Positions 3,428-35,753 of a stretch of DNA of 64,000 bases are shown piece by piece. The position numbers were made by a program, and so were the translations under genes. The notes below the pieces were generated by a model, which was not told the origin of the DNA, searched no databases, and saw only the letters and a program-made list of their open reading frames with translations. The DNA comes from Siphonodentalium dalli (Eukaryota; Mollusca; Scaphopoda; Gadilida; Siphonodentaliidae): assembly GCA_032622095.1 (NCBI GenBank), contig CP136062.1, forward strand, positions 225,694,578 to 225,758,577, written 5' to 3'. How positions within the stretch are numbered: the first letter of the stretch is position 1; each line of letters starts with the position of its first letter.

Positions 3428-3584
3428 TCAGCATTCATCTGTGTCCATAACCATGTCTCCGGGAAATGTTTTCTCACATGGGTAACCGGGGCAACAACGC
3501 TAGCTTCCTCAAACACAGCGATAGCTGGGCCTTTACGCATTATCACACCGTCATCAGCAAATGCAAATACTGGTCTTATAAATC
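3428..3584 (-). CDS. Cassette exon V18 of the A2M/TEP array (last found)
   Basis: Exon of 157 nt with acceptor CTCTTTTAG|GA and donor GA|GTAAGA, the closest to a consensus donor in the array. Its 51 codons start FIRPVFAFADDGVIMRKG and end VTHVRKHFPETWLWTQMNA. It is the tandem duplicate of V17. No further cassette or constitutive A2M/TEP exon was recognised between here and the left window edge, so the downstream exon that completes the split codon lies outside. Confidence 0.88.
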
Positions 3585-3841
3585 CTAAAAGAGGCGAAAC
3601 ATTCAAGACAAGGTCAGTTTATTTGGGGAGGAAAGTCGTTACCACGGAGACAGTTAATCCTGCTGGAAAAACCACTTACCCTGATTAACCCTTTCTATAC
3701 TAAATGGATTCTCCCAGTCAGTTATAAAAGTATATGTTGGAATGGACTATTATGAGGGATGAGTATTTAGAAAAGATGGTGCTTCCGGCGTCGGGCTCAT
3801 TGATGAGTTGTTCCCAAGGAAATGTCCAGAACTTCAATTAA

Positions 3842-4266
3842 CCCTTTACCCAACAGAACGGCCCTGTGCCAATGCATTCTCTTATATATGCGAGTCGACC
3901 ATAGGTCGCCTCACATATATAAGAGAATGCATTGGCTTAAGACATATCAAAAATGATAAAATTGTCAAAGAATGTAGAAATATATTATAAAAATTGATAA
4001 AACATGTAAGAAAAAATTATAAAATTGTTAAATAATGTAAGAAAAAATGTTTTTTTAGGCCAATGCATTCTCTTATATATGCGAGGCGACCTATGGTCGA
4101 CTCGAATATATAAGAGAATGCATTGGCACAGGGTATAACTGTGACCATCACAATGTGGTCAATGAACCGGTTCCAATGATATCCATATTTGTATGGTGTT
4201 ATTGAGACAGATCGAAGATATTTTAGGCTGTTGAAGCTTTATTTGGGCGTTTTGTTGGGTAAAGGG
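3842..4266. mobile_element. TTAA-flanked palindromic MITE, family B
   Basis: Ends CCCTTTACCCAACA / TGTTGGGTAAAGGG sit between two TTAA tetranucleotides (3838-3841 and 4267-4270). Inside are two hairpins with the core CAATGCATTCTCTTATATAT. TTAA targets with CCCTTT ends point to piggyBac-like mobilisation, which is inference because no transposase is present. Confidence 0.78.
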
Positions 4267-4345
4267 TTAATTAGTTCAACAAACGACGATCACACATAAA
4301 ACTATAAATTGAAATAGTCTATTAATCATCTGGAGTGGAGCTTAA

Positions 4346-4535
4346 CCCTCTCATGATGGGAGCTGCGCTGGTGCAGCATTAAATATCATGTGCCGGTGCA
4401 TTCTCTTATATATGCGAGTCTCCCATAGGCTTATACGGTCCAGGTAAATATTGTTAGGCCAATGTATTCTCTTATATATTTGAGGCTCCCTATGGGAGAC
4501 TCGCATATACAAGAGAATGGATTGGCACAGGGTTT
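4346..4535. mobile_element. TTAA MITE family A, right end truncated
   Basis: Left end CCCTCTCATGATGGGAGC after TTAA, then the double hairpin core. The sequence leaves the family consensus after GGCACAGGGTTTTCG, so the right end is missing or replaced. Confidence 0.65.
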
Positions 4536-4547
4536 TCGTATGATCTA

Positions 4548-4680
4548 TGCTTAATTGTAAATATTTCCTTCTCAACTCGGGACCCAACTATCGGCGATAA
4601 ACTAATGAAAATTATTTCGCCATCCGGAGTCACTGCATTTAATTAATATATAAGAATGGCGGTGTGTGCTGTCAATTTTA
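4548..4680. repeat. Dispersed repeat family J, partial copy
   Basis: Matches 5950-6085 closely over the stretch containing CAACTATCGGCG, ATTTCGCCATC and GGAGTCACTG. The longer copy at 5801-6157 ends with a single monomer of the satellite found at 42.6-64 kb. Confidence 0.6.
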
Positions 4681-4695
4681 ATTCAGACTAATTGG

Positions 4696-4864
4696 TGCAC
4701 ATCACCATCTGGGAACTTAAATCTGAGTCTAAGACTCCACTAGAAGATGAGGCCATACAGAATGAGCTCCACAGAGGATGAATTTAGTGATGCTAGCCCA
4801 CTATGCAGGGTGGCGTCACTAAATTCACCCTCTGGGGACCTCATTCTGCAAATGTCCAGCACCA
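4696..4864. repeat. Half copy of nested palindromic MITE (family D)
   Basis: Corresponds to the right part of the copy at 2770-3257 and is duplicated together with cassettes V17/V18. Confidence 0.65.
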
Positions 4865-4996
4865 TAGCATCGTCACCCAGTCAACCATTTCATCTTGCTG
4901 TCAAATGACGGGTGAATTATTTCACATTACAGGTTTAACACTATGATCTAGAAGATCACAAAGTCCGTTAAAAAATATAGTAACATCCTAGCTTAC

Positions 4997-5153
4997 TCGG
5001 CATTCATCTGTGTCCATAACCATGTCTCCGGGAAATGTTTTCTCACATGGGTAACCGGGGCAACAACGCTAGCTTCCTTGAATACAGTGATAGCTGGGCC
5101 TCTACGCATTATCATATCTTCATCAGCAAATGCAAATACTGGTCTTATAAATC
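4997..5153 (-). CDS. Cassette exon V17 of the A2M/TEP array
   Basis: Exon of 157 nt with acceptor CCTATTTTAG|GA and donor GA|GTAAGC. Its 51 codons start FIRPVFAFADEDMIMRRG and end VTHVRKHFPETWLWTQMNA. It is nearly identical to V18 1569 bp away, and several hundred bases of flanking intron are duplicated with it. The differences cluster in the variable half (DEDMIMRRG against DDGVIMRKG). It has His in RKHF where other subgroups have Tyr or Phe. Confidence 0.88.
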
Positions 5154-5343
5154 CTAAAATAGGCGAATAATTCAATACAATGTCAGTTTATTTGGGGAGG
5201 AAAGTCGTTACCATGGAGACAGTTAATTCTGCTGGAAAAACCACTTACCCTGATTAACCCTTTTTTTTACTGAATGGATTCTCCCAGTCAGTTATAAAAG
5301 TATATATTGGAATAGTCTATTATTAATTGGGAGAGGTGCTTAA

Positions 5344-5796
5344 CCCTTTCATGATGGGAGCTGCGCTGGTGCAGCATTAAAGATCCTGTACCAGTGCATT
5401 CTCTTATATCTCTCCAATAGGGAGCCTCACATATACAAGAGATGCACTGGCTTACAAGGTAAATATTTTTAGGACAATGTATTCTCTTATATCTCTCCAA
5501 TAGGGAGCCTCACATATACAAGAGATGCACTGGCTTACAAGGTAAATATTTTTAGGACAATGTATTCTCTTATATCTCTCCAATAGGGAGCCTCACATAT
5601 ACAAGAGATGCACTGGCTTACAAGGTAAATATTTTTAGGACAATGTATTCTCTTATATCTCTCCAATAGGGAGCCTCACATATACAAGAGATGCACTGGC
5701 TTACAAGGTAAATATTTTTAGGCCAATGTATTCTCTTATATATGTATTCTCTTATATATGTATTCTCTTATATATGCGAGGCTCCATATGTGAGGG
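5344..5796. mobile_element. TTAA MITE family A with internal 83-bp tandem expansion
   Basis: Family A left end after TTAA (5340-5343) and TTAA at 5797-5800. Inside, an 83-bp unit (hairpin TATATCTCTCCAATAGGGAG through GACAATGT) is repeated about four times with almost no divergence, starting near 5398, 5481, 5564 and 5647. A short 16-bp stutter follows. The right end is reduced. Confidence 0.75.
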
Positions 5797-5800
5797 TTAA

Positions 5801-6157
5801 AGACATATTATGGACTTATTTGGGTGCGTGAAACTAATACGTTAGTATTCAGGTGCTATTAGAGGAATGTAGCCTTCGACTAACATCATTGAAAATCTCA
5901 AGCAAAATGACCATACCACTCCATAGAAAACATCGTCTGAACTACGTTCAATTGTAAATATTTACTTCTCGAATCGGGATGCAACTATCGGCGTTAAACT
6001 AACGAAAATGATTTCGCCATCGGGAGTCACTGTATTTAATTATTATATAAGAATGACAGTGTGTGTTATCAATTTGGAAAAACAACAACTTTGAGAATTA
6101 AGATTATTCTCCATTTTATATTTGATCACTCTACCGGAGTGTTTCACATCACTTTAA
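5801..6157. repeat. Dispersed repeat family J containing one satellite monomer
   Basis: Begins AAGACATATTATGGACTT, the same sequence that borders the satellite at 42519. It ends (6099-6157) with one copy of the 56-bp satellite monomer: TAAGATTATTCTCCAT... through ...GGAGTGTTTCACATCACTT. A TTAA MITE is inserted directly at its end. Confidence 0.7.
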
Positions 6158-6412
6158 CCCTTTCATGAATGGAGCTTCCTGAAATTTTGCAAAAACCCTG
6201 AGCCGATGCATTCTCTTACATATGTGAGTGTCCCATAGGGAGCCTTGCATATATAAGAGAATGCACTAGCCTAACAATATTTACCTTGACCTTGTAAGCC
6301 AGTGTATTTTCTTACATATGCGAGACTCCCCTATGGGAGACTCGCATATATAAGAGAATGCACTGGCACAAGATCATTAATGCCGCACCCGTGCAGCTCC
6401 ATCATGGAAGTG
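6158..6412. mobile_element. TTAA MITE family A, full copy
   Basis: CCCTTTCATGAATGGAGC to CCATCATGGAAGTG between TTAA (6154-6157) and TTAA (6413-6416). Two hairpin cores with CATATGTGAG / CTTGCATATATAAGAG. Inserted in the satellite-like monomer. Confidence 0.78.
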
Positions 6413-6419
6413 TTAAGAA

Positions 6420-7490
6420 ATGTAAGCAGACGACAGACAGATGAAATGGTAATACAAGTGTAGAAGGATTTCTATTAATTGGTGGGATATATATGCTCAG
6501 ATACCGGTAATAAGTTCAAAACAGCCTGTGGTCTTGTTGGACTTATTATACATCTAAATAATTTCCTAAATTAAGGGAACAACTTGTCTATGAAAATAGT
6601 ATTTAGTAAAGGAAGGGTTTGAGAAATGTTATGTACTTATTTCAGTGAATTAAATTGAAATGTGAGTACCCAGGTACCTTAATTGAAATGTGAGTACCCA
6701 GACATCTCTCCCCAGGCCTGCAGATTTCAGAATTATGTGTAACATATTTTCCGTTTGCCTGGGTTGGGCTTAAGTAACCCATGGGTTACCATAAGAGTTA
6801 CACAAACTGTTATAATCACCACAACTGGTATTCACTACTAATGGGTAACTCATTAAAGTAATAATTTTGAATATCTCATATTGGGACTTGATTGTGCAAT
6901 AATATAGCCTACAGGTGAAAATCAGTGATCGCGAGACCTACAGAAAACTTTTGCTCAACATGTTTTTTTTACATAGACCATTCCAATGTATACTTTTATG
7001 ACTGAATGCGGGAGTCCATTTAGTATAGAAAGTATTAAGCTTCTTACAAACATTGAGTTGATCAGAAATACATGATTAATGGGCATTAAACCATCTTCAT
7101 CAACGTTGGTTGGCTTACGTCGACGGTCTAATATGCTATCCACCTTACCGACTGAGCAAGTAGAGGCTGACAAATACAATGAACAATGGACCATTCCATT
7201 ATAATCTTTGAAGGTTTTAATCTTAAATATGGTCGTCCACTTCGATGAGCTTTTTGATGTCTAATATTTTTGCAGCACACCATCACCTTATATGGAAAGC
7301 GATCTCACTTTATATGGAAAGCAATAACACCTGAGGTTTTTATAATTTTTCTCAAATGTTATATTATTTGAAAGCTTATTATAGCATTAATATTTGTCCT
7401 AATTAATAATAATTAATAATAACTAATATTAACAAGAAGTAAAGGTAAATAGGTTATTATGAGACTATATATATGCAGTGTTGTGTTCAT
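6420..7490. other. Intronic AT-rich DNA without recognisable gene
   Basis: Contains only short open frames without family motifs and one short duplicated phrase (AATTGAAATGTGAGTACCCAG, twice near 6651-6705). Nothing supports a gene. Confidence 0.5.
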
Positions 7491-7492
7491 GA

Positions 7493-7735
7493 TACTATAT
7501 AGTTTCTACATTCATTTATAATGAGATAAGATATATTGCTGAAAATATTCCAAGCCTTCTCATAATTAATATATCAATATTTTTTTGGAAATTTGACATG
7601 ATCTGTTTGAAGAATTATAGAGAGAACTACCTCATTTGATAAACAAAAAAAAAGAAAGATGATAGAAAAAACAGCTGAAAATATCAGAAAAAACATTTCC
7701 TAGAAAAGTGATTTATTCAGTTGATAATTTAATAA
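7493..7735 (-). repeat. Dispersed repeat family H (minus orientation)
   Basis: Reverse complement of the sequences at 18772-18985 and 25339-25877 (phrases TATCAACTGAATAA, GAACTACCTCATTTGAT and ATATTGATATATTAATTA). Confidence 0.65.
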
Positions 7736-7739
7736 AGCC

Positions 7740-9000
7740 ACATGGCGGTTTGCGCTCCAAAATACACCCAATAATATTCAGTTGATAAATACCTGAATAA
7801 CTTTTCTAAGAGCGTTATATGTCCCCAGACAGATGTATTGAAGTGATAAAAACTTTGAACACAATGTACGGGCTCCGAACAAAAACTGTGGCACTCGTTC
7901 ATCTGAATTCTGGAATCGGAAACGGAATGTCCGGAAATTGTAAATTGTGATTTCTTAACATGAAACTATTCATATTTCACGCACAACTTTATCTGTTTTA
8001 ATCATCCAAATTACGTACTACCATAAATGTTTTAGAACAAAGACTGCTCTAGGTTTGCAGTTGCAATTTTTACGCGACCATTGACTAAAATTTTGAACTG
8101 GCACAATTTAAACGAAACAATCTCAAATTTATAAAAAATTATAAAAAACAAAACACATATTTTCAGTGCTGTATTGATCAATTTGTTCGGGAATCTTCCG
8201 CGGAGGTAAGTTTTGATATACCTCTTACCAAATTACTGCAAAATCTTGAATATATTGATATGCTATGGTGCAGTACAAGCAAGTGTGCTCAAGTGTGGTA
8301 ACCTACCAACATAATATTATTAAAATGATTGAATTGCGCTCCAAGCTATGTACAGGTGTAATCGGCAATTCAATGCAAGTGTTGAATATATAACTGGGTT
8401 AATTAATGCATATTCAAAATATATCTGTCAACCCATGCTCTGATATAGAGGATCTCTAACGAGTCACAATTCTATACAAAATTTATTAACTGAGAGCACT
8501 AAATTTTAATAAAGCTGAGCTTCAATGAGGCTGGAATAAAATCTATTAGAAAAGGTTAATTAATTTTGTATAGAATTGCGATGAATTTGAAATCAATTTG
8601 ATCACATAATCACATTTTAGCAAGGATAAACGATCTTGAAATGGCTGGGGTTAAAACAAATTAATATTTCCTTATCACAACCAAAAAGGAAGTAACAACA
8701 CCTTCAAGAAAAAATATAGTTCCATTTTAAATGTGTCCTTTCATGTTGACAAAAATGTTCAACAACCCTTATCACCAATGTTTATCTGAAAGTCAACACT
8801 AAATAACCCAGCACAAATCGAATATCATAATTATATTCTAATTAACATAATAATAAAGTTCCAGCATTGACATCAACATCATTGTGCTAAGCTCTTATAT
8901 CACTGTGCCTGCCGATTTTACACATGTGGGTGCCGATTTTACACATGTCTTACTAAAAATATATAAGGCTGGATAGGCTAATTATGTGATAAAATTTATT
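7740..9000. other. Intronic DNA, no gene; small inverted repeat
   Basis: No coding similarity seen. A short inverted repeat pairs ACAATTCTATACAAAATT near 8466 with its complement near 8564, leaving a loop of roughly 80 bp. Confidence 0.45.
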
Positions 9001-9061
9001 CCCCAACCAAGGCTTAGCTTCCAATGTCACTTAGCAGTGGATTTCTCTCCTATGAACATAC

Positions 9062-9248
9062 TCAGCAGAAATCGACTCGAATAGCCATGTTTCGGGGAAG
9101 TACTTCCGAGTATGAATAACGGCCGCAGGTTCGGTTATCATTGGTTGGATATCATTAGCCTTGGGTATCACCTGCATTAAATCATCAAACATTTCCTGAA
9201 AACCTCCTCGGCCTCGTTGTAAATTCTTCCTCTGGGCAACTATCCAAC
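9062..9248 (-). CDS. Cassette exon V16, longest cassette
   Basis: Exon of 187 nt with acceptor TTTATAG|GT and donor GA|GTATGT. Its 61 codons start WIVAQRKNLQRGRGGFQ and end IHTRKYFPETWLFESISA. The N-terminal half is strongly basic (RK, QRGRGG), opposite in charge to V1. The residue after FPETWL is Phe rather than Trp. It has no close relative in the array and lies alone in a stretch poor in MITEs, so it may be an old cassette. The donor phase and GA end match V1, V17 and V18. Confidence 0.86.
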
Positions 9249-9719
9249 CTATAAATAGCGTTTGTAATTGAGCACGCGTGAACGTCTGCAACAGATGGTA
9301 ATGGCAGAATCATTGAATTCTCGAAATGAAATTTTTCAGATTTTTTTTTTATTATTGATTATCAAAGTTTACAGACAAAATAAAATATTTCTCTTCAGAA
9401 GATTGAGTTTTCAAAATATTTCACTGGACAGCAGCAACAAATAACTGGGAATAATGAGCACTGAAATGTGTCGTCTCAACTTCTCTTTCCATTTCAAGTT
9501 TCTAGAGCAATACATATTATCACAACAGCTAGTGTGTTGATCCATGTCGTAGTATCACCTCGAGTTGATGCGAGCAGAGTGCCGAATCCAAACGATGCGA
9601 CGTCACTGATCAAGTCACTACTGTGATAACAGGGTTATTATATTAAGCCCAATTTACAATAATAACTATTTAATTACAGATTTGTTTTCACTTCAGCAGT
9701 TTAATTTTCTTACCAGATA

Positions 9720-9749
9720 TAACGGGGTGGGGGAGGGGGGGGGGGGGTG
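9720..9749. repeat. G-rich homopolymer tract
   Basis: A run of mostly G (GGTGGGGGAGGG followed by more than ten G). Potential quadruplex-forming sequence and assembly-error hotspot. Confidence 0.7.
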
Positions 9750-10289
9750 AAAACGAACACAGCCTCAGCATACCTAGTTACGTAGTCTATATTTAACGGA
9801 TAACTAGTCCCGTCATTGTTAATTCGGCAATTTCAGTAGGAGGAAATCTCACCTAGTTTGATCAGACGATTTGGATTATATCGTAAAACAATAGTGGTAT
9901 TTAGGGAAGAATATTCATATAATAAATATGTATATCACTAACAAGAAAGAATTCTCATTCTTCGAGTGCTCTGAAAGTTTTCGCACATATTTCTGTTCTA
10001 AAAATAGCCCCGCTGATTCCTCCTCCAGGCAATATATAAAACCACCCTATAAATAGCTTTACAAACAGACAGTTGACCCCATACTATATAAGCCCAGATT
10101 CTCACAGACTACAGGTACAGGAGTCTATACAAGCACTAACTAGGTCACTAGGCCACACCTTATCCAAATCAATATACACACACAGTACAAACAAGAAAAA
10201 TAAGTCACAAATCCCTGTCCACTTCCGGAAAGGGGGGGGGGTGCATGTGGCTTTGCTTTCTGCTGTGGTGGCACGCGTCTGAAACACAA

Positions 10290-10770
10290 TAGGCATCAAG
10301 AGAATCGACGATGGAGTCACGGAACCCAAAATCAAACTTGACATGTATTTTCATATGAGTAATTCATATTGAAAACAATCAGATAAAAGTAAAGTTATCA
10401 CCCGGAAACCAAAATAATCGCCAAATTCTAAGTCGACAAGGACCACAACTCTGGCAAAAATGGGTGGACCGAATCCAAATTCGAAAATGACCTGTATTTT
10501 CATCTGGCTAATCCACATACAAAATTTGAAAACAGTCAGACAACTAAAACTAAATTTATCAACCGGAAACCTTCTAAGTCAACAAGGACCATAACTCTGG
10601 AAAAAAATGGCAGGCAGAATCCAAACTCGAACTTGACCTGTATTTTGGGCTAGTCAACTCACATACAAATTAAATTCCATTCAGTTCAGACATACTAATT
10701 AATGCTATCATCCGGAAATGAAAAAGCGAACAGATGGACAGGACAGACAGACGGATGGATGGACCAAACA
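10290..10770. repeat. Dispersed repeat with internal ~150-bp tandem units
   Basis: Three diverged units each contain a phrase like CTTGACCTGTATTTT and a CCGGAAACC motif, ending in a GACAGACGGATGGATGG run similar to the repeat tail near 1.1 kb. Confidence 0.5.
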
Positions 10771-10908
10771 CATTCTGTTTTTGTTCAAAACAGGCGTATA
10801 AAAACTACTATCGGCATATAAGAATATACATACAAATGCTCTTTAACGGCATTATAACAATACCAAAGTTGGTTGTAGAAGAGGGATGCCAGCCCGAGCT
10901 TTCAAATC

Positions 10909-11584: not shown

Positions 11585-11599
11585 AGATTGAAGTTCCCC

Positions 11600-12131: not shown

Positions 12132-12169
12132 GTCACTTCGATTATACAATTTATCTTCTGCAAATTAGG

Positions 12170-12560: not shown

Positions 12561-12599
12561 TTTTTTTAAAGGCCCATTTAATTTTCACCAATTATTTGT

Positions 12600-13470: not shown

Positions 13471-13618
13471 TTGGCTGACAAAGCCGCCCAGATCCAAGTT
13501 TCTGGGAAAAATTTCCTTATATGGCTTACTGGTCCAGTGGAGGAGACCACATTTTTGTTCATATCATCATTGCCGCCACCCATGTCCATGTTCATTTCCA
13601 ACTCTGGTCGCGGTCTAC
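13471..13618 (-). CDS. Cassette exon V14 of the A2M/TEP array
   Basis: Exon of 148 nt with acceptor TTTAATAG|GT and donor AA|GTATGT. Its 48 codons start RPRPELEMNMDMGGGND and end VSHIRKFFPETWIWAALSA. The variable half is Met/Gly/Asn-rich with an Arg-Pro-Arg cluster at the very start, a plausible target for trypsin-like proteases (inference). It is the intact member of the V12-V15 subgroup. No other ORF context exists, because the exon is bounded by intron on both sides. Confidence 0.87.
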
Positions 13619-14033: not shown

Positions 14034-14178
14034 TTGGCTGACAATTCCGCCCAGATCCAAATTTCTGCGAAAAATTTCTTATATGACTTACTGATGCAAC
14101 AGGAGAAAAGACCATAGTTTTGATTACAAAATAATCAGAAACATTTTTTCTCCATTTGGCCTCCAAAGTCCAGTATGG
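14034..14178 (-). pseudogene. Cassette V13: decayed exon with frameshift and lost acceptor
   Basis: Clearly homologous to V14: VSHIR is followed by nucleotides matching the KFFPETWIWA segment. However, one base is missing just after the HIR codons, so the FPETW part is out of frame. At the expected acceptor V14 reads TTTAATAG but this copy reads TTTAATAA, so the AG is gone. In the expected phase a stop also appears after about a dozen codons. The donor AA|GTAGGT is kept. It is an old, inactive duplicate between two intact cassettes. Confidence 0.8.
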
Positions 14179-14440: not shown

Positions 14441-14609
14441 TTGGCTAACAATGCCGCCCAGATCCAAGTTTCTGGGAAATATTTCCTAATATGGCTAACT
14501 GGTGCAACAGCAGAAGATTCCACAATGATATCTTTGAATAGACCATTCAATAAAACATCGTCGACAACGTGTATCTTGGGAACTTGAGGTCTCTCCAAAA
14601 TAATGTTGC
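14441..14609 (-). CDS. Cassette exon V12 of the A2M/TEP array
   Basis: Exon of 169 nt with acceptor TTCTGTAG|GC and donor AA|GTAGGT. Its 55 codons start NIILERPQVPKIHVVDD and end VSHIRKYFPETWIWAALLA. The variable half is unlike the other cassettes (hydrophobic, with PQVPK), while the C-terminal end WAAL groups it with V14. It is the working neighbour of the degenerate V13. Intact frame and canonical sites. Confidence 0.86.
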
Positions 14610-15972: not shown

Positions 15973-16114
15973 TTAGCTGACATCGACTCCCAGATCCAAG
16001 TCTCCGGAAAAAATTTCCTTACATGGCTTACTGGAGTTACAGCAGCAGGCAGGTCAATGCCGCCAGCTTTAAACCGGATAATTCCAAACTCATTGTCTGC
16101 TACTGGCCTAAATC
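15973..16114 (-). CDS. Cassette exon V11 of the A2M/TEP array
   Basis: Exon of 142 nt with acceptor TATAATAG|GA and donor AA|GTAGGT. Its 46 codons start FRPVADNEFGIIRFKAGG and end VSHVRKFFPETWIWESMSA. It has Phe in RKFF, as in V14, and its FRPV start recalls the FIRPVF start of V17/V18, so it looks like a bridge between the two subgroups. A TTAA MITE begins about 33 bp upstream of the acceptor, where the branch point would normally lie. Intact. Confidence 0.87.
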
Positions 16115-19138: not shown

Positions 19139-19295
19139 TTAGATGTCAAACCATCCCATATCCATGTTTCAGGAAAGTATTTCCGAACATGAGTTACAGG
19201 TGCAGTCGCACCGTTATCACCAGATACGCTGTTCGATTCCGCAGGGGGAGGTCCCTCGGCACCATCTTCCATCACCATATCCCGCCAATTAAAAT
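19139..19295 (-). CDS. Cassette exon V10 of the A2M/TEP array
   Basis: Exon of 157 nt with acceptor TCTCCCAG|AT and donor AA|GTAGGT. Its 51 codons start FNWRDMVMEDGAEGPPP and end VTHVRKYFPETWIWDGLTS. It has an acidic, Pro-rich variable half and the common FPETW end of the V5-V10 subgroup. The downstream intron begins with the AGGTCA-A-AGGTCA repeat, and half a TTAA MITE ends about 50 bp from the donor. Intact. Confidence 0.87.
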
Positions 19296-20447: not shown

Positions 20448-20598
20448 TTAGCAGTCAAACCATCCCATATCCATGTTTCAGGAAAATATTTCCGAATATG
20501 AGTTATAGGTGGAGTCGGATCATTACCCCCAGATACAGTGTTTGAAGCCAGGGGGCCGTGTGCACCATCTTGGACTGCTTTCTCCAGCCAAACTTGAT
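20448..20598 (-). CDS. Cassette exon V9 of the A2M/TEP array
   Basis: Exon of 151 nt with acceptor TTATCACAG|AT and donor AA|GTAGGT. Its 49 codons start QVWLEKAVQDGAHGPLASN and end ITHIRKYFPETWIWDGLTA. It is close to V6 but has AVQDGAHG where V6 has AEVLRDGG, so the variable half has changed faster than the FPETW half. A 21-bp minisatellite and a short palindrome lie in its upstream intron, separating it from the conserved intron block, which resumes near 20958. Confidence 0.87.
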
Positions 20599-21330: not shown

Positions 21331-21466
21331 TTAGTTGTCAAACCATTCCATATCCATGTTTCAGGAAAATATTTGCGAATGTGGGTTACAGGTGCATTAG
21401 TGCCACTTCCACTATTCGAGTCAACAGGGGCTCCAACTTGGACTCGATCTTTCTCCAAAACTATAC
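21331..21466 (-). CDS. Cassette exon V8 of the A2M/TEP array
   Basis: Exon of 136 nt with acceptor TTTATCACAG|GT and donor AA|GTAGGT. Its 44 codons start IVLEKDRVQVGAPVDSN and end VTHIRKYFPETWIWNGLTT. It is a shortened relative of the V5-V10 subgroup that lost part of the Gly/Asn-rich middle in multiples of three. The split codon at its start is xGT rather than xAT. Intact. A mariner-like palindromic MITE (21556-21768) is inserted in the conserved upstream intron block. Confidence 0.86.
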
Positions 21467-21960: not shown

Positions 21961-22111
21961 TTAGCTCTCAAACCATCCCACAACCATGTTTCAGGAAAAT
22001 ATTTCCGAACATGATTAAAAGGTAGAGTCAGATCATTACCCCCGGCAGTGTTTGAAGCCAGACCGGGGCCACCATCTCTGAGTACTCCTACTTCCTCCAG
22101 CCAAACATGAT
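21961..22111 (-). pseudogene. Cassette V7: open frame but destroyed splice acceptor
   Basis: This 151-nt copy has an intact reading frame in the shared phase (start HVWLEEVGVLRDGGPG, end NHVRKYFPETWLWDGLRA) and a normal donor AA|GTAGGT. At the acceptor the sister cassettes read CACAG|AT, but this one reads CACAC|AT, so the essential AG is lost. No AG lies in the next 30 bases upstream. It also has PFNHV where sisters have PPITHV. It is most likely a freshly silenced cassette. A sequencing error or an allele-specific change cannot be excluded from one sequence. Confidence 0.75.
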
Positions 22112-22461: not shown

Positions 22462-22615
22462 TTAGCTGTAAAACCAGCCCACATCCATGTTTCAGGAAAA
22501 TATTTCCGAACATGAGTTATAGGTGGAGTCGGATCATTACCCCCAGATACAGTGTTTGAAGCCAGACCGGGGCCACCATCTCTGAGTACTTCAGCTTTCT
22601 CCAGCCAAACATTAT
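22462..22615 (-). CDS. Cassette exon V6 of the A2M/TEP array
   Basis: Exon of 154 nt with acceptor TTTATCACAG|AT and donor AA|GTAGGT. Its 50 codons start NVWLEKAEVLRDGGPG and end ITHVRKYFPETWMWAGFTA. It is very close to V9 and to the damaged V7, so these are recent duplicates. A 2-kb foldback element is inserted only 18 bp upstream of the acceptor (22634-24640) and has displaced the original upstream intron, including any branch point, unless the element supplies one. Coding sequence is intact; whether it is still spliced is uncertain. Confidence 0.85.
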
Positions 22616-24840: not shown

Positions 24841-24938
24841 AATAGAGACTCCCTATGGGAGACTAGTCGCATATATAAGAGAATGCACTGGGACAGGACC
24901 TTTAATGCTGCACCAGCATAGCTCCCATCATGAAAAGG
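24841..24938. mobile_element. TTAA MITE family A, right half
   Basis: From AGAGACTCCCTATGGGAGAC to CCCATCATGAAAAGG. It shares its terminal TTAA (24939-24942) with the next MITE. Confidence 0.68.
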
Positions 24939-24942
24939 TTAA

Positions 24943-25334
24943 CCCTTTACCCAACAGAACGGCCCTGTGCCAATGCATTCTCTTATATATGCGAGTCGAC
25001 CATAGGTCGCCTCGCATATATAAGAGAATGCATTGGCTTAACACATTAAAAATTATAAAATTGTTAAAGAATGTAAGAAAAAATGGTAAAAAGTGTTAAA
25101 AAAAGATTTTTTTTAGGCCAATGCATTCTCTTATATATGCGAGGCGACCTATGGTCGACTCGCATATATAAGAGAATGCATTGGCACAGGGCATAACTGT
25201 AACTATCACAATGTGGTCAAGGAGCCGGTTCCAATGATATCCATATTTGTATGGTTCTATTGAGACAGACCGAAGATATTTTAGGCTGTTGAAGCTTTAT
25301 TTGGCCGGTTTTGGCCGGTTTATTGGGTAAAGGG
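24943..25334. mobile_element. TTAA MITE family B, full copy
   Basis: CCCTTTACCCAACAGAACGG to TTATTGGGTAAAGGG between TTAA at 24939 and 25335. Two hairpin cores. Confidence 0.8.
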
Positions 25335-25338
25335 TTAA

Positions 25339-26037: not shown

Positions 26038-26191
26038 TTAGATGTCAAACCATCCCACATCCATGTTTCAGGAAAATATTTCCGAACATGAGTTACAGGT
26101 GGAGTCGGATCATTGCCACCAGTTGCAGTGTTTGAATCCACGGGGCCGTGTGCACCATCTCTGAATACTGCGTCCTCCCGCCAAATATTAT
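26038..26191 (-). CDS. Cassette exon V5 of the A2M/TEP array
   Basis: Exon of 154 nt with acceptor TTTATCACAG|AT and donor AA|GTAGGT. Its 50 codons start NIWREDAVFRDGAHGP and end VTHVRKYFPETWMWDGLTS. It belongs to the V5-V10 subgroup, which shares a N(I/V)W-type start, a Gly/Asn-rich middle and the end DGLT. The upstream intron carries the block shared with V6-V9 (26204-26350) containing the ...TTTTTTTTCTCT... tract. Intact frame and sites. Confidence 0.88.
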
Positions 26192-26869: not shown

Positions 26870-27026
26870 TTAGCTGTCAAACCAGTCCACATCCATGTTT
26901 CAGGAAAATATTTCCTAACATGAGTGATCACGGGTGTCGGCTCTTGGTTATTAGCGTTATTGCCGGTTGCATCGTTCGAGGCCCCAGGGAGAGCGTCCAT
27001 TCTCATCACGTCATCAAACATAATAT
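26870..27026 (-). CDS. Cassette exon V4 of the A2M/TEP array
   Basis: Exon of 157 nt with acceptor TCTATCACAG|AT and donor AA|GTAGGT. Its 51 codons begin MFDDVMRMDALPGASND, continue through an Asn-rich linker and end THVRKYFPETWMWTGLTA. It is the sister of V3, with the same end residues and linker but changed charges in the variable half (RMDALPG against RMASLPG). Its downstream intron has the AGGTCA repeat with one base less between the halves than V3. No frame damage is visible. Confidence 0.88.
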
Positions 27027-27704: not shown

Positions 27705-27864
27705 TTAGCTGTCAAACCAGTCCACATCCATGTTTCAGGAAAATATTTCCTTATGTGAGTGATGGCGGGTGACGGCTCCTGGTTATTAGCGTTATTGCCC
27801 GTTGCAGTGTTCGAGGCCCCAGGGAGAGAGGCCATTCTCACCACCATGTCATCGAACATAATAT
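27705..27864 (-). CDS. Cassette exon V3 of the A2M/TEP array
   Basis: Exon of 160 nt with acceptor TCTATCATAG|AT and donor AA|GTAGGT. It encodes 52 codons: a start MFDDMVVRMASLPGASN, an Asn-rich stretch (GNNANNQEP), then THIRKYFPETWMWTGLTA. It is a close relative of V4, from which it differs by a few substitutions and one extra codon near the start, so the two are a recent tandem duplication. The first intron bases downstream carry a perfect AGGTCA-A-AGGTCA direct repeat. The Arg in the variable half could be a protease cleavage point, which is inference. Confidence 0.88.
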
Positions 27865-27897
27865 CTATGATAGATGAATTTTATATGTGTTTTAAAC

Positions 27898-28357: not shown

Positions 28358-28369
28358 GGTGGTTATTAA

Positions 28370-28800
28370 GCCTGGGAATCAAATTTAAAGATACATAATC
28401 CGAACTAACGGTCCTAAATTACTATTTCTTTGGCTTCAGGGCAAACAATATTTGATTCGAGTCGAGGAACCCACCCATTAGACCTAAGAGATCAGATATA
28501 AATTTTTGAAATCTGTTAATTTTCACCACCTCGAATATTTGGCAGCTTTGTAAATATTAGACAAGCCCGACCAATATACTCTTGACACCAAATTGCGTTG
28601 AACAAAATGTTGATATATAACACATTTTGACAGTGGTTATCATTATTTTTTTGGTAATTAATCAATTTTGATAACTAAAGCATCTCTTGAAGAAATGTTG
28701 TTGTTTCCTGAATGTGATGATATGGGGACCATCAAATCAGATTGTGTATTTTAAAGCCCTTTTAAGCACTTTTTGTATGATTGGGTGAAGAGTTTTTAAG
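28370..28800. repeat. Duplicated intron block (also near 34240-34490 and 36775-37490)
   Basis: Shared phrases include GAAGAAATGTTGTTGTT, ATGTTGATATATAACAC and a GGGGACCATC-like stretch. Two of the three copies lie upstream of a cassette. Confidence 0.65.
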
Positions 28801-29055
28801 GACTATTTTACTAAAGTACGTTACCTACAATAAACACATCACTCTATGTCAGTTTAGTGTTAAAAATGGTGAAATTAACTCCAAAATTCACGTATGTCTA
28901 TCATTATTCAAACATTCACATTTTTGTAATTGACACATAATAATGAATAATGAATAATGTCAAAATTTATCAGAGAAATAAAGGAACTAATATAGAATAA
29001 GCAAGATAAATAAAACAGTTATAAATGAACAAAATTCATGCAAACACAAATATAT

Positions 29056-29280
29056 ACAGTAGGGCCTAATGCCCTAAATAATCGACTCCTTAACCACAGC
29101 AGAATTACGGGTAACTTTTAAGGATTTAGTCAGAAATATGGCTTGTTGCCATTCATTGGAAAACTCTCAGTGAGAGCTTTCCGATGAATGACAACAAGCC
29201 ATATTTCCAACTAAATCCTGAAAAAAACCCCCCATAATTCAGCTGTGGTTAAGGAGTCGATTATTTAGGGCATTACTGTA
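29056..29280. repeat. Palindromic MITE family C, full copy
   Basis: CAGTAGGGCCTAATGCCC to GGGCATTACTGTA, with the long arms containing AAATATGGCTTGTTGCCATT. Confidence 0.75.
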
Positions 29281-29283
29281 CAA

Positions 29284-29505
29284 GGGAAGAATTGTTCGTA
29301 CGAGATGGATGTCGAGGGAAGACTTTCGGTTCACAATGATCGAGATGGACATCGAGGGAAGACTTTCGGTTACGACGATATATGAATGAGATGGACATCG
29401 AGGGAAGACTTTCGGTTACGCCAATCGAGGGAAGACTTTCGGTCACGACGATATATGAATGAGATGGACATCGAGGCAAAACTTTTGGTCACGACGATAT
29501 GACAG
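29284..29505. repeat. Minisatellite (GAGGGAAGACTTTCGGTTAC...)
   Basis: About five units of variable length built from CGAGATGGACATCGAGGGAA and ACGACGATATATGAATGA. Confidence 0.85.
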
Positions 29506-29679
29506 TAATCAGGACCAGACATACCCACCCAGGAAGAGAGTCGATGGAACGCACTCATATCTCATCAATTTATATGCTAATCTTTTGTTTTTTCTACAGT
29601 TTCTACACTCAAAATTAGTTTTTATCTCCGAACCCACAATTATATTGATAAACGAGCAGGGTTTTTAGCTAGGTCAGTG

Positions 29680-29698
29680 TGTGGGGGGGGGGGGGGGG
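29680..29698. repeat. G homopolymer tract
   Basis: GTGTGTGGG followed by a run of G. Prone to length error. Confidence 0.7.
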
Positions 29699-29916
29699 AC
29701 GTAAAAGGGACCCGATTTTCAGAGGTCGAGTTACAATGGCAAATACAAGCTTAACTTTTCATATCAAAAGTATGATTTTGGTGAGAAAGACTATATGTGA
29801 TGTGACCGACAGGTAACGAAAAAAATGTGACATGTGTGCAGACAGGATTTAATTTGAAATTGAGATATTTTAGCTATTGTCTGGTACTGTACGATAAATC
29901 AATCATCATCAGTTAA

Positions 29917-30175
29917 CCCTTTCATGATGGGACCTGCGCTGGTACAGCATTAAATAACCTGTGCCAGTGCATTCTCTTATATATGAGAGTCTCACATAGG
30001 GAGCATCCCAAATATATGAGAAAGCACTATTGGCTTACAAGGTCAGGGGTAAATATTGTTAGGCCAATGTATTCTCTTATATAAGCGAGACTCCCTATGG
30101 GAGACTCGCATATATCAGAGAATGCATTGGCACAGGCTTTTCGCAAAATTTCAGGAAGCTCAAGTCACGGAAGAG
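29917..30175. mobile_element. TTAA MITE family A, full copy
   Basis: CCCTTTCATGATGGGACC to CAAGTCACGGAAGAG between TTAA at 29913 and 30176. Confidence 0.78.
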
Positions 30176-30982
30176 TTAATCCATCCATATATTTCTGTCA
30201 GAAAATTATGAATTTAAATGGGAATGAATAATTGTATGCCATGAAAATTAACTTTGATAAATAGCCCCGTTGACAACGTCATAAATATTAATTCAGTTCA
30301 GAATTAGATTGATCTGATATTACCATATAACATCTAAATTTTTGTGACCAGGGTTGTCTTTTGTTCAAAAATAAATATTGTGGTAATAACCTGGTCGTAA
30401 ACGGAGTGATTTTAAAATTATGGCAATAATGTTATAGCACAATACAACTGGCCAGCATTATCCTCGGATTTCAAAATTTTCATATGAGGGCAAAAAACAA
30501 TCATCATCCCATCCTATGCTAGGTTCTACGGACCTTACATTTTAACCCTGACCGAAACCCTCAAAGAGGTATCCAAAATAAGCCTTGAAATAGTTACATA
30601 TTATTATCCATCCCTTAACTAACACTATTTCTGGTTGGGCAAAAGCTGCCACGTGATAATCCGGGAAAAAGTCATATTGAACTCCCGAATGTCATATTGG
30701 ACTCCCAAGTGTGCAATATGACTTTTTTATCGGGACTCTATTAACTCTATTGCGAAATGAATCGGTGAAATTGTGATGCGCGCGTAACACTGGTGGATTT
30801 AGCAGACGTTTCACTTCCGCATTGAGTTTTTTTTTCTCATTTCCATGTTTACTGTTCCTAATCATGCTTTCTGATTATCAAATACAGGCTTTTATTGAGA
30901 ATTAAGTGCCAACAAGTACCAAAAAATAACCACAAAAGTTTTATTCCCAACATTTGGATAACATACAGATGGATAATAAAAA

Positions 30983-31122
30983 TGTCATTATACAATGTTT
31001 TGAACAGTATGAGTTTTTCTTGTACTCGTCCAGTTATGCGTGTCTCATCCAATAAGACTTTTCACCACAACCTGGACTCGTACAAGAAAAACACATACTG
31101 TACACAACATTGTATAATAACT
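30983..31122. repeat. Inverted repeat with ~50-bp arms
   Basis: TTATACAATGTTTTGAACAG and CTGTACACAACATTGTATAA pair, continuing through TTTTTCTTGTAC. The loop is about 35 bp. Overlapping frames on both strands are incidental. Confidence 0.65.
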
Positions 31123-31206
31123 TTATATTATAAATAAGTGCGATCCAATCAACCCTCTCTCAGACTGTTCATGAATGGGCAGGGACCCGCATGATCCAAG
31201 ATTACA

Positions 31207-31375
31207 TACAGTAATGCTCTAAATAATCGACTCCTTAACCACAGCAGAATTATGGGTAACATTTCAGGATTTAGTCAGAAATATGGCTTGTTGCCATATT
31301 TCCATCTAAATCCTGAAAAGTTACTCATAAAATTCTGTTGTGGTTAAGGAGTCGATTATTTAGAGCATTACTGTA
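31207..31375. repeat. Palindromic MITE family C with central deletion
   Basis: TACAGTAATGCTCTAAATAA to TTTAGAGCATTACTGTA. The centre is shortened. Confidence 0.75.
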
Positions 31376-31390
31376 ACGATTTTATAATCA

Positions 31391-31812
31391 AGCCTTGAAA
31401 TAGTGTGTCTGTCAATTGCAGAATGAGGTCCCCAGAGGGTGAATTTAGTGTAACATCACTAGATTCACCCTTTGGATACCTCAGTCTGCTTAGGCCTCAT
31501 CTTCTGGTAAGTATCTATAGTCTCAAATTAACATTGTTTTTAGTTACTTTTTCCTTTCTGTTCAGTTTATATATCCCCTAACTTGCAGAAGATAAAATGC
31601 ATAAACGGGGTGACTATAATGTGTGAGCATCACCAACTTCAACTGGGGAACTTTAATCTGATTCTAGGTTTCCAAAAGCAGTTGAGGCCTCAGCAGAATG
31701 AGGTTCCCAGATGGTGAATTTGGTGATGCTAGCCCACCATGAGGGATAGTGTCACTAATTTCACCCTCACAGGACCTCATTCTGAAAATGACACACTATA
31801 TCCAGACTTGAT
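31391..31812. repeat. Nested palindromic MITE (family D), diverged copy
   Basis: CAAGCCTTGAAATAGTGTG to CACACTATATCCAGACTTG. The left inner palindrome has a deletion. Confidence 0.7.
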
Positions 31813-31840
31813 TTTAATCATAAGCTGCGGTTTGACCTAC

Positions 31841-31964
31841 TTAGCAGCAATAGAATGATACATCCATGTTTCAGGAAAATATTGTCGAACAAGAGAAACA
31901 GGTTTCATTTTGTTACCATCTTCACTTTCACTATTCGCTGGCTTGAAGCGATCGAATCCCAAAT
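31841..31964 (-). CDS. Cassette exon V2, shortest and most divergent intact cassette
   Basis: Exon of 124 nt with acceptor TTGATGCAG|AT and donor AA|GTAGGT, in the same phase as the other cassettes. It has 40 full codons: a short polar N-terminal half (LGFDRFKPANSESEDG) and the end VSLVRQYFPETWMYHSIAA. It differs from the consensus at LVRQ instead of HVRK and has Tyr in place of the Trp after FPETW. The variable part is about a third shorter than in V1 or V16. It sits between a nested palindromic MITE on its downstream side and a TTAA MITE starting 30 bp upstream of its acceptor. Confidence 0.82.
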
Positions 31965-31993
31965 CTGCATCAAGAAAATGAGAATAATCTTAA

Positions 31994-32226
31994 CCCTTTA
32001 GTGCTAGGTCGATTTTTGTATCAACCATATACCCTGTGCCAATGCATTCTCTTATATATGCGAGTCGACCATAGGTCGCCTCGCATATATAAGAGAATGC
32101 ATTGGCCTAACAATTTTTTTTTTTTTACAGTTTTTTTTACAATTTTAATAATTTATTCTTATATTCTTTAACAGACTTATTTTGTAGGTTTAGGGCTGAT
32201 GAGATCGGCCCCTGGCACTCAAAGGG
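31994..32226. mobile_element. TTAA MITE family E, copy 1
   Basis: CCCTTTAGTGCTAGGTCGAT to CCCCTGGCACTCAAAGGG between TTAA at 31990 and 32227. Only one hairpin core, identical to that of family B. Confidence 0.78.
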
Positions 32227-32717
32227 TTAATTAAAGGACCCTTTAATTTTCGAGTCACTGATTATTTTTATTATAGTGCTTTGATACGGTTTTAATAACA
32301 ATCTATGACATAAAATATGATTAAAATACTATAATGAATCACCATTTGGAACGTCTGTGTCTCAGGTGGCCATAGAGTAATAGAAAATAGATGAAATCAT
32401 AGAAACAATTCCTCCATTTCGCTCCCAGAATGCAACATAATTCAAACTAAGAAAAAGATTTATTCCCCTTCATTGAAAATAAGTCCAAATGAAACTTAAG
32501 CACAGAAAACACGTCGATACCTCAACAAAAACATGTTCACAGTTTATTACACCAGATAAGTTGATGATACAATGTTTTGGAGCTCCTCTTTTAAATGCTA
32601 TATAATATGGAATATATTTTATATAATGTGATCTGGGGGTTCGAAAATTAAGTTGGCCTTTCAAGGGAGACTGTACTCTAATTCCTGTAGTTGAGGGATT
32701 TGTTTAGCCTGAATTAA

Positions 32718-32944
32718 CCCTTTGAGTGCCAGGTCGATTTTTGTATCAACCCATATACCCTGTGCCAATGCATTCTCTTATATATGCGAGTCGACCATAG
32801 GTCGCCTCACATATATAAGAGAATGCATTGGCCTAACAATCTTTTATTTTATTTATACAATTTTAATAATTTATTATTATATTCTTTAACAGACTTATTT
32901 TGTAGGTTTAGGGCCGATGAGATCGGCCCCTGGCACTCAAAGGG
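32718..32944. mobile_element. TTAA MITE family E, copy 2
   Basis: CCCTTTGAGTGCCAGGTCGA to GGCACTCAAAGGG between TTAA at 32714 and 32945. Its ends match copy 1, but it is less mutated. Confidence 0.8.
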
Positions 32945-32949
32945 TTAAT

Positions 32950-33126
32950 AACAGCTAGGACCTTAACAAATAAGCCAAAGGTTGATACCAATGGAAATAG
33001 ATATCGCCCTGGAATAATAGGAATCAGGGAGCTAAATGTGTTCCAGAGTCGGGGAGCGAGTACTCCGTGGAATGCTAAAGGTGAAGGTAACTGAAGAATG
33101 ACCTTCACCTGATACATGTGACACAT
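32950..33126 (-). pseudogene. Possible non-LTR retrotransposon C-terminal remnant
   Basis: The minus-strand frame contains LAFHGVLAPRLWNTFSSLI. An APRLWN motif followed by a hydrophobic segment is common at the C-terminus of LINE reverse-transcriptase ORFs. The stretch is too short and diverged for certainty. Confidence 0.35.
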
Positions 33127-33405
33127 TATTAAAGGATGACATCATGTGTATTTGATTTGTACATCATATCTAAATAATTTAAACTGGTGAATTAATGGGG
33201 GAATGGATTTTTGTTAGTGGGAAATTGATTTAACTAGCTGCTGTAGTTCTGGGTTTTTCCAAACCAAATTTGGCTGTGGGATAATAGTCCTGTCGTACAC
33301 TTGGGGATTTATTTAAAAAGTAAACACATATGACCTATGATTTTTCTTGCATTTTCGTGATCAACTGGTGTCAATCTAGCTGGGTAAACACCACAAGAAT
33401 AGCCT

Positions 33406-33496
33406 GTTCAATTCAGTGAATTCTGTCAAAACGTTAACACTGTCGCCTATGATAGGCGACAGTGTTAACGTTTTGACCGAATTCACTGAATTGAAC
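33406..33496. repeat. Near-perfect 91-bp hairpin
   Basis: GTTCAATTCAGTGAATTC...GTCGCCTA, loop TGA, then the complement. There is about one mismatch in 44 pairs. It lies just before a 31-bp minisatellite. Confidence 0.88.
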
Positions 33497-33555
33497 CTAT
33501 GGGAAACCATTTAGTTCAGTGATTTCTTACATGTTAGTGGACCAAAATCTGTCAA

Positions 33556-34126
33556 CTGTTGTGATTGGCTGACACTGATGTAATGCTTGCTGTGATTGGC
33601 TGACACTGATGTAATGATTGCTGTGATTGGCCGACACTGATGTAATGCTTGTTGTGATTGGCTGACACTGATGTAATGCTTGTTGTGATTGGCTGACACT
33701 GATGTAATGCTTGCTGTGATTGGCTGACACTGATGTAATGCTTGCTGTGATTGGCCGACACTGATGTAATGCTTGTTGTGATTGGCTGACACTGATGTAA
33801 TGCTTGCTGTGATTGGCTGACAATGATGTAATGCTTGCTGTGATTGGCCGACACTGATGTAATGCTTGCTGTGATTGGCCGACACTGATGTAATGCTTGT
33901 TGTGATTGGCTGACACTGATGTAATGCTTGCTGTGATTGGCCGACACTGATGTAATGCTTGTTGTGATTGGCTGACACTGATGTAATGCTTGCTGTGTTT
34001 GGCTGACACTGATGTAATGATTGCTGTGATTGGCCGACACTGATGTAATGCTTGCTGTGATTGGCTGACACTGATGTAATGCTTGCTGTGATTGGCTGAC
34101 ACTGATGTAATGCTTGCTGGTGGTAT
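33556..34126. repeat. 31-bp minisatellite (GTGATTGGCTGACACTGATG...)
   Basis: About 18 copies of a 31-bp unit with GGCTGAC/GGCCGAC and TGCTTGC/TGCTTGT variants. All three minus-strand frames stay open, giving artefact ORFs of up to 235 codons. Confidence 0.93.
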
Positions 34127-34586
34127 TAATGGAAAACCTACATATTTCTTCAGACTTTGTACCAGGCCTAAGTTTAATGTGCCTGTCATTTGCAGACTAT
34201 GGAAAATATTTGTCAAGGAAATGGTCTCGGACAAAATTGCGGATGAAGATGGCTAACTCTAAAATCAATTGGTAATACGGCCAAATTTCCTGATAAACAA
34301 GTGATAATACAGCCATATTTCGTTGAATGTTGATAACACGATTTGGGAAATTTTATACCATAGTTGACAGTGGTTAGCATTATTTTGTTGTAAATAATCG
34401 ATTCTAATAACTAAAGCATATTCTGAAGAAATGTTGTTGTTGTTGTTGTAACTTGATATGGGGACCTCTGATCGGATTGAGTACCATTAAACATACGTGT
34501 CAGTAAATTACAAGTTTATATGTGAGCAAGACAAAAAAAAGCTCCCCAAACTCATGCAAGTATGATGCAACCTTCATTTGTTTTAA

Positions 34587-35569
34587 CCTTTCAATGACTG
34601 GAGCTTCCTGAAATTTTGTGAAAACCCTGTGCCAGTGCATTCTCTTATATATCCGAGTCTCCCATAGGGAGCCTAACATATATAAGAGAATACATTGGCC
34701 TAACAATACATATACCTTGACCCTGTAAGCCAGTGTAACATTCTCTTATATATGCAAGGATCTCTATGGGATACTCGCATATATGAGAATGCACTGGCAC
34801 AGGATCTTTAAAGGGGAAGGAAACCCTCAACAAATCAGGCCGTTAATATATTTAGTATATCAACCATGATGCGATAAAACACCTCTCATTTCTCAGTTAC
34901 ATGGCATAATAGAAAACTCCTGCTAATTATTTATAAGATCATGACGTCACAGCCTCACTTCGCGTTACTCATTTTTAGTACGTACATTTATAAAGGCTAG
35001 AACACTGAAATCATTTCGGCGTGTTTTGTTTGTTATTCTGCGCAAAATCCAAGCAATCACAACCTATTGAAGATGTACATAGTATTATAAGTCAAGATTA
35101 TTTATGTTATAATTTTGAACAATTAATTTACTGCCAGTTAATGGCTGCATAACATTTGAATGTGGAAATCTCGGCCAAACTCACATGACTTCTGTATGTG
35201 CAAATATGGCAACCAAACAATCTTTCGCGAATTAAACTATAATTTAATTTATTTATTGTGCACAAAAAACATTCAATCTGCTGTTTTGTTTATTGTCAAG
35301 CAACCAAGTGAGGCTGTGACGTCACAAACAATAAAGGGAGATAATATTTCATCCAAAATGGTGGCGTCAAGTTACCGGGGTAATTGCATGCGCAGGTTAG
35401 TTTGAGACGCCATTTAGGGCATTACTGTATCTCTGATCTTTGGGGCGATTTGAGCTGAAACTTTACATATGAACAGTGAACAGCTTGCTTCATGCACATG
35501 CCTGTTAGTTATGCGATAGTTTCCTTCCTCTTTAATGCTGCACCAGCAGAAACTCCCGTCATCAAAGGG
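34587..35569. mobile_element. TTAA MITE family A split by another TTAA element
   Basis: Left part 34587-34811 and right part from 35532, ending before TTAA at 35570. The two parts join into one normal family A copy when the inner element is removed. Its right TTAA overlaps the donor intron of V1. Confidence 0.75.
34812..35531. mobile_element. 720-bp TTAA-flanked element inside a MITE
   Basis: Ends AGGGGAAGGAAAC / GTTTCCTTCCTCT, an inverted pair with one mismatch, between TTAA at 34808-34811 and 35532-35535. It is non-coding. A family C end fragment (GGGCATTACTGTA, near 35418-35430) is nested inside. The ends suggest a piggyBac- or Kolobok-type non-autonomous element. Confidence 0.75.
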
Positions 35570-35578
35570 TTAACATAC

Positions 35579-35753
35579 TCAGCTAAGATTGAATTCCATA
35601 TCCACGTTTCAGGGAAATATTTCCGGACATGAGATTTAGGAGTGGAGGGTATGTTCATAATTGTGTCTTTCGCAGAAGACATAATATCAGCATCATAATT
35701 CATTCCAGCATCATCATAGAACATCTCATTCTCATAAAGCATATACTGATATT
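35579..35753 (-). CDS. Cassette exon V1 of an A2M/TEP-family gene (first of the array)
   Basis: Internal exon of 175 nt, the 5'-most cassette found. The acceptor is ATTTTTCAG|AA behind a T-rich tract and the donor is GA|GTATGT. After two bases of a split codon it encodes 57 codons. The N-terminal half is acidic and Met/Tyr-rich (YQYMLYENEMFYDD), and the C-terminal end is HVRKYFPETWIWNSILA. The FPETW block is the family hallmark just after the bait/hypervariable region of secreted thioester proteins. A closer AG lies 8 nt inside the exon but would break the shared phase, so the outer AG was chosen. A TTAA MITE ends at 35569, so its TTAA overlaps positions +6 to +9 of the donor intron. The variable half resembles no other cassette here. 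Family assignment is firm; use as an alternative exon is inferred from the array. Confidence 0.85.

Follow-up and report, generated by a model that had tools for sequence, protein, structure and literature searches.

We analysed a window of 64,000 nucleotides from the scaphopod mollusc Siphonodentalium dalli (GenBank assembly GCA_032622095.1, contig CP136062.1, here C2, positions 225694578-225758577; GC content 36%), which forms part of a 2.23 Gb assembly of nine contigs. Its minus strand carries an array of short exons, here called cassettes, each of which joins a distinct N-terminal segment to a common end of the RK(Y/F/H)FPETW type. By the anatomy of their reading frames, the cassettes are probably the mutually exclusive bait exons of a gene of the A2M/CD109/TEP superfamily. 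The array and the two exons that flank it are listed below in the order of transcription (window positions, unless C2 is given).

41911..41965, minus strand, common upstream exon; 55 nt, entered in phase 0 and left in phase 1; encodes KAGLNFMSDLHLLNQQNS+G; preceded by ttttttttcag and followed by GTGAAT
35579..35753, minus strand, cassette c01; 175 nt
31841..31964, minus strand, cassette c02; 124 nt
27705..27864, minus strand, cassette c03; 160 nt
26870..27026, minus strand, cassette c04; 157 nt
26038..26191, minus strand, cassette c05; 154 nt
22462..22615, minus strand, cassette c06; 154 nt
21961..22111, minus strand, damaged cassette c07; acceptor AC, not AG
21331..21466, minus strand, cassette c08; 136 nt
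20448..20598, minus strand, cassette c09; 151 nt
19139..19295, minus strand, cassette c10; 157 nt
15973..16114, minus strand, cassette c11; 142 nt
14441..14609, minus strand, cassette c12; 169 nt
about 14034..14122, minus strand, recognisable part of damaged cassette c13; in-frame stop, FPETW reads FAEIW, donor sequence retained
13471..13618, minus strand, cassette c14; 148 nt
9062..9248, minus strand, cassette c15; 187 nt, acceptor ambiguous
4997..5153, minus strand, cassette c16; 157 nt, closely related to c17
3428..3584, minus strand, cassette c17; 157 nt
C2:225693383-225693560, minus strand, intact cassette c18; outside the window, about 1 kb past its low end
C2:225688866-225688983, minus strand, common downstream exon; entered in phase 2; encodes SDGKAVFNSKTPDTITSW, the next part of MG7

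A preliminary description of this stretch had reported fifteen intact and three damaged minus-strand exons with one common end. All 15 intact exons are indeed present, and the outer coordinates, 3428 and 35753, are exact. Each of the 15 has an AG acceptor, a GTANGN donor and a single open frame with a length of 1 mod 3, and the range of 40-61 complete codons and the uniform splice phase given for them are also true of every one. Two of the damaged exons were located (c07 and c13), while a third was absent from a blastn comparison of the 15 intact cassettes with the window (E <= 0.01), which likewise yielded no further cassette copy there. Altogether, the array comprises 18 cassettes, 16 of them intact, spread over approximately 37 kb. 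If the sequence is cut four residues before FPE, the bait amounts to 24-45 residues per cassette.

A profile made from 12 of the array tails and scanned against all six frames of the window found 17 minus-strand copies with scores of 49.7-91.0, the weakest being the damaged c13 (49.7) and the rest scoring 65.4-91.0. The next-best place in the window reached 23.6, and the top score over five single-base shuffles of the window was 37.0. In the whole genome, a DNA pattern for K...FPETW matched 35 times (its reversed control, once): 16 matches lie in the array, 15 of them in the window with the damaged c07 included, and three lie elsewhere; c02 and the damaged c13 do not fit the pattern. The remaining 16 matches belong to a collinear near copy at C2:225.94-226.07 Mb, about 315 kb up the contig, in which all 18 cassettes recur in unchanged order, 16 of them intact. 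We refer to the array of the window as copy A and to this second one as copy B; as they are near copies, their counts are not independent.

Every intact cassette is entered in phase 1 and left in phase 2, matching both common exons. The upstream exon was recognised through copy B and the paralogs. Direct splicing of the copy B exon 226061041-226061169 to the cassettes was ruled out, since that exon ends in phase 0; this led to a search for an exon entered in phase 0 and left in phase 1, which was found, via paralogous loci on contigs C4 and C5 (described below), as the 55-nt exon. In both paralogs, the cassettes are preceded by a short exon whose motif is (N/S)AG(V/L)xVxTD. On the minus strand, a motif of this type occurs in one place in the 94 kb searched at A and in one place in the 70 kb searched at B, the place in A being 41911-41965. 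This exon differs from its copy B counterpart at 2 of 55 positions, both synonymous. At the junctions, the first codon, formed by the upstream G and the cassette, encodes Gly in 8, Asp in 7 and Glu in 1 of the 16 intact cassettes, and the last codon encodes Asn in 12 and Asp in 4.

Splicing in silico of a single cassette of copy A between its two common exons gave an open, in-frame product for all 16 cassettes. None of the serial arrangements remained open, be it pairs (0/120), triples (0/560) or quadruples (0/1820), that is 0/2500 overall. Without any cassette, the downstream exon is read in the wrong frame, since each cassette is 1 mod 3 long. The outcome was the same for the cassettes and upstream exon of copy B combined with the downstream exon of A. 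As skipping causes a frameshift and two to four cassettes in series introduce stops, a full protein would come from single-cassette transcripts only.

In order to lessen the bias of choosing splice sites by eye, acceptors and donors were scored with fixed weights of our own, based on the U2 consensus. The top-scoring acceptor was in phase 1 for 15 of the 17 motif matches in A (the misses being c07 and c15) and for 15 of 16 in B (the miss being c15), compared with one third at 3000 random positions. If donors are restricted to sites before the first in-frame stop, the best one lies 23 nt after FPETW, in phase 2, in 17/17 matches of A and 17/17 of B, the damaged c07 included.

The assignment of the gene to its family is based on several matches. 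A partial protein of 484 residues, with exons joined by eye, matched the Pfam models A2M (2.5e-26), A2M_BRD (6.9e-19) and TED (4e-14) above cut-off, and in the PDB it matched CD109 (2.2e-69), A2M (7.4e-61) and mosquito TEP1 (2.1e-41). PF00207 was matched (6.5e-26) when the upstream exon was joined to a single cassette and the two exons that follow, which places an MG7-type A2M domain directly after the bait. Further downstream, an open frame at C2:225674762-225674956 contains GCGEQ and matches the thioester domain PF07678 with 53 bits, and more exons were recognised by eye between the downstream common exon and this stretch. The receptor domain PF07677 was matched in both copies, in A at C2:225636693 and in B at 225940954, with 29.4 bits and E 0.002 against a cut-off of 21.7. 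The bait-region domain PF07703 was matched at copy B only, and the MG2 and MG3 models had no match at A or B. The variable segment itself occupies the place of the bait region, between an AGLxxxSD strand and RKYFPETW. By these matches, the protein belongs to the A2M/CD109/TEP superfamily, its closest PDB match being CD109, with A2M close behind. The proposal of the preliminary description that the exons are alternative hypervariable-region exons of an A2M/TEP gene thus agrees with what we found: one gene, common upstream and downstream exons in matching phases, and domains of the A2M family.

We consider it very likely that the locus is one minus-strand gene of the CD109/A2M/TEP family with a cluster of 16 intact alternative bait exons (18 in total). 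The gene probably yields a protease-bait protein in sixteen versions. The spliceosome would join the exon 41911-41965 to one cassette, and this cassette to the exon C2:225688866-225688983, which carries the continuation of MG7 and is followed by the thioester domain with GCGEQ. Each cassette would thereby supply a different bait before the fixed RKYFPETW strand. In proteins of this family, once a protease cuts the exposed bait, the protein changes its fold and its thioester becomes active, trapping or tagging the attacker (PMC7016707). A protease that matches the bait would, by cutting it, set off this trapping or tagging step, and a swap of the bait exon would change which protease is able to trigger it; if one cassette is used per transcript and the protein is made, its baits may differ in their protease range. 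It is worth stressing that such a gene would carry 16 protease baits on one innate immune chassis, with their exclusivity written in the reading frame and readable from DNA alone.

Several observations weigh against this interpretation. For c15, an AG in another phase, 37 nt upstream, scores better and would be a competing acceptor, and the c07 of copy B scores in phase 1 merely by chance (it also has an additional 4-nt gap difference). When the in-frame-stop rule is lifted, the phase-2 donor is best in just 9 of the 17 matches in A, since elsewhere a site such as AAG|GTCATT just downstream wins. A scan of two 1-kb stretches for docking/selector pairing gave at most 8 of 16 cassette flanks above the 10% control threshold in any window, and many of these flanks are alike through recent duplication. 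One TED stretch has three TAA codons and one receptor-domain stretch has one TGA, in both copies; these stops are most simply explained by matches that run into introns. The N-terminal half of B above the bait-region domain was not found with Pfam models or in 20 kb of frames read by eye. Finally, copy A has no known exons upstream of 41965 in the assembly: the exon 226061041-226061169 and the bait-region exon 226068743-226068922, both of which lie upstream in copy B, each occur once in the genome, in B only. Copy A may therefore be a truncated copy, a copy rearranged at the satellite that lies 5′ of its upstream exon, or a second haplotype placed in tandem.

The last point leads to an alternative that is compatible with a cluster of mutually exclusive bait exons and that we rate at slightly less than an even chance: copy A is a dead or assembly-made second copy, either the other haplotype or a 5′-truncated duplicate broken at the satellite, and the working, expressed gene is B. 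Apart from the two single upstream exons, it is favoured by the divergence between the copies. In the 500-bp flanks of the 16 cassettes, A and B differ by 1.69% (237 of 14009 columns, poorly aligned 50-column blocks removed), which is compatible with alleles. A difference of this size lies within the allelic range of an outbred invertebrate. In addition, the homology extends past the sampled gene, as 400-base samples at 225940000 (99.75%) and 225948000 (96.7%) match the side of A, and the C5 paralog is likewise present twice, in inverted orientation. On the other hand, open frames are kept by all 16 cassettes and both common exons of A, and also by those of its 3′ exons that were recognised by eye. 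In addition, no N occurred in twenty 400-base samples taken from the stretch that separates A from B. Both findings are nevertheless compatible with this alternative.

The same comparison bears on a second alternative, namely that the cassettes are relics without function, left over from exon duplications and retained by chance, with only one or two in use. Two of the 18 cassettes have decayed, and in the comparison of A with B the variable parts have diverged no more slowly than the flanks: they differ by 2.42% (40/1652), which exceeds the flanks at p 0.038, whereas their nonsynonymous sites alone do not exceed them (p 0.16) and are not under the flank rate either. A codon count over 15 cassettes gave 26 nonsynonymous changes at 1156 sites and 12 synonymous changes at 347 sites in the variable parts, a ratio of nonsynonymous to synonymous rates (dN/dS) of 0.65. 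For the conserved ends, the figures were 6 at 614 and 2 at 151, with a dN/dS of 0.74 that rests on eight changes. The variable parts appear to bear no sign of strong constraint. Diversifying selection between A and B was also considered, and with this dN/dS and the nonsynonymous comparison with the flanks it is not demonstrated. Against the relic explanation, the frame and both splice sites of 16 of the 18 cassettes are preserved in A as well as in B, and the conserved ends are less divergent (0.94%, 8/848) than the variable parts (p 0.013; versus flanks p 0.12), even though in c01 of copy B a W replaces the R of RKYFPETW. Moreover, the arrays of two paralogous loci keep the same plan. We therefore regard relics as improbable.

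That every cassette is part of a separate TEP gene, full-length or partial, a case the preliminary description had named as one that would refute it, could be suggested by the spacing of the cassettes (up to about 4.4 kb in A) and by the frequent tandem expansion of gene families, but it is hardly credible and was rejected, given that fitting neighbour exons were located at the two ends of the array only and that six A2M-family models (PF07678, PF00207, PF07703, PF01835, PF17791 and PF07677) had no match in the window, where short exons can be missed.

The gene with the predicted mutually exclusive bait exons has relatives elsewhere in the assembly, at the following loci.

C4:25870300-25897300, TEP locus with eight bait cassettes, seven of them with a donor; nearly without Lys/Arg and rich in His (HHHHG)
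C5:7731100-7756300 and C5:12548900-12564700, two inversely oriented copies of a TEP locus, separated by about 4.8 Mb and each with five bait cassettes; one cassette with RRRR
C3:66862600-66885000, TEP-type locus with one bait exon (YFPETFLW) in 22.4 kb; donor again at +23 relative to the motif (count by eye)

The arrays on C4 and C5 carry FPETWLW and FPESWLW. Phase-2 donors at +23 were found for 7 of 8 matches on C4 and 5 of 5 on C5 (for one C5 match as the second-best site), and the best acceptor was in phase 1 for 6 of 8 and 4 of 5. In a small tree of cassettes, those of C4 (support 0.999) and C5 (0.764) cluster by locus, separate from C2. Across the three loci, 28 cassettes are apparently intact, namely 16 on C2, 7 on C4 and 5 on C5, near copies not counted. 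Composition differs as well: the variable parts on C4 contain 2 Lys or Arg among 331 residues versus 41 among 574 on C2 (Fisher p 9e-7, with the reservation that related cassettes do not supply independent residues), and 33 His versus 19; the C2 baits are mixed in composition. With hardly any Lys/Arg and many His, the C4 baits should escape trypsin-like proteases. These differences allow the tentative and rather unlikely idea of a divided bait repertoire, in which each of three TEP loci would be specialised for a different protease class, with splicing and the choice of locus tuning germline-encoded protease sensing. In any case, the genome offers a natural series of 1, 5, 7 and 16 bait exons, in which the number of bait exons can be set against protease range and exon choice. 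Separately, bait-region and receptor-domain matches about 40 kb apart at C2:109530485-109570306 perhaps mark another TEP gene.

Clusters of this kind are known from other animals. The closest case is BgTEP2 of Biomphalaria glabrata, in which 12 mutually exclusive exons over 30 kb are seen in transcripts (PMC7016707). As in our array, its tandem bait-like exons vary in length and composition and share a conserved C-terminal part. BgTEP2 belongs to the insect-TEP/CD109 clade and the array gene has matches of the same kind; the comparison is one of plan, not of orthology. Unlike BgTEP2, the array counts 16 intact cassettes of 18 in approximately 37 kb and is known from sequence alone. In the same snail, BgCD109 has eight predicted variants of the bait-equivalent region, four of them in transcripts, and BgA2M has three (PMC7016707); both resemble the array in using alternative exons for that region, and the number in the array is larger. 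It also exceeds those of other genes that vary the bait region through alternative splicing, namely CfTEP of the scallop Chlamys farreri (six mutually exclusive exons, seven isoforms), shrimp A2M-2 (six variants) and Drosophila TEP2 (five isoforms); for scallop and shrimp, challenge-dependent bait isoforms were reported (all cited in PMC7016707 and PMC5489563). Tick A2M from Ornithodoros moubata and Ixodes ricinus (IrA2M-1) likewise has "several" bait-region splice variants (PMC7962413). Isoform diversity is also found in A2M of the fish Tenualosa ilisha, with twelve isoforms (PMC6650032), which we compare by reported number alone and not as a bait-exon cluster. Strain differences of snail TEPs concentrate in the bait-like region (PMC9363628). 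Snail TEP genes have 35-43 exons versus 11-15 in fly and mosquito (PMC7016707), and the many short exons at the array locus resemble the former more than the latter.

The figure of five to seven known variants given in the preliminary description is therefore outdated, in view of the 12 exons of BgTEP2 and the eight predicted for BgCD109. No bait-exon cluster larger than the 12 exons of BgTEP2 was found in the literature searched, which excludes most subscription papers. By its anatomy, the array is a large new case of a principle known from snails, insects, ticks and a scallop, bigger than the published clusters that we located. Calling its repertoire combinatorial-like, as was done initially, is wrong in the strict sense: one cassette would be chosen from a single cluster, which gives about 16 isoforms rather than the product of several clusters. 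In arthropod Dscam, several exon clusters multiply. The array shares with Dscam the tandem, putatively mutually exclusive exons for an exposed segment (PMC2685406) and differs from it in having one cluster per gene. In the two 1-kb stretches scanned, no docking-selector RNA structure was recognised.

The window also holds a satellite and smaller repeats.

42601..64000, no strand assigned, 56-bp satellite; lies 5′ of the common upstream exon, with about 380 copies in the window

The place that matches this satellite in copy B is an intron. On the side of A, the satellite continues past the window; the first 10 kb there contain no N, and 400-base samples taken every 10 kb place its end between C2:225780400 and 225790000. 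In copy B, it spans just about 4.8 kb and gives way to a 66-bp satellite. Within the array, a short palindromic element (GCATTCTCTTATATATGCGAG...) at 24860-25210 is recurrent in introns and many open reading frames and resembles a miniature inverted-repeat transposable element. At 33511-34252, a 31-bp tandem repeat of 18 copies is open in all three minus frames and gives rise to spurious long open reading frames.

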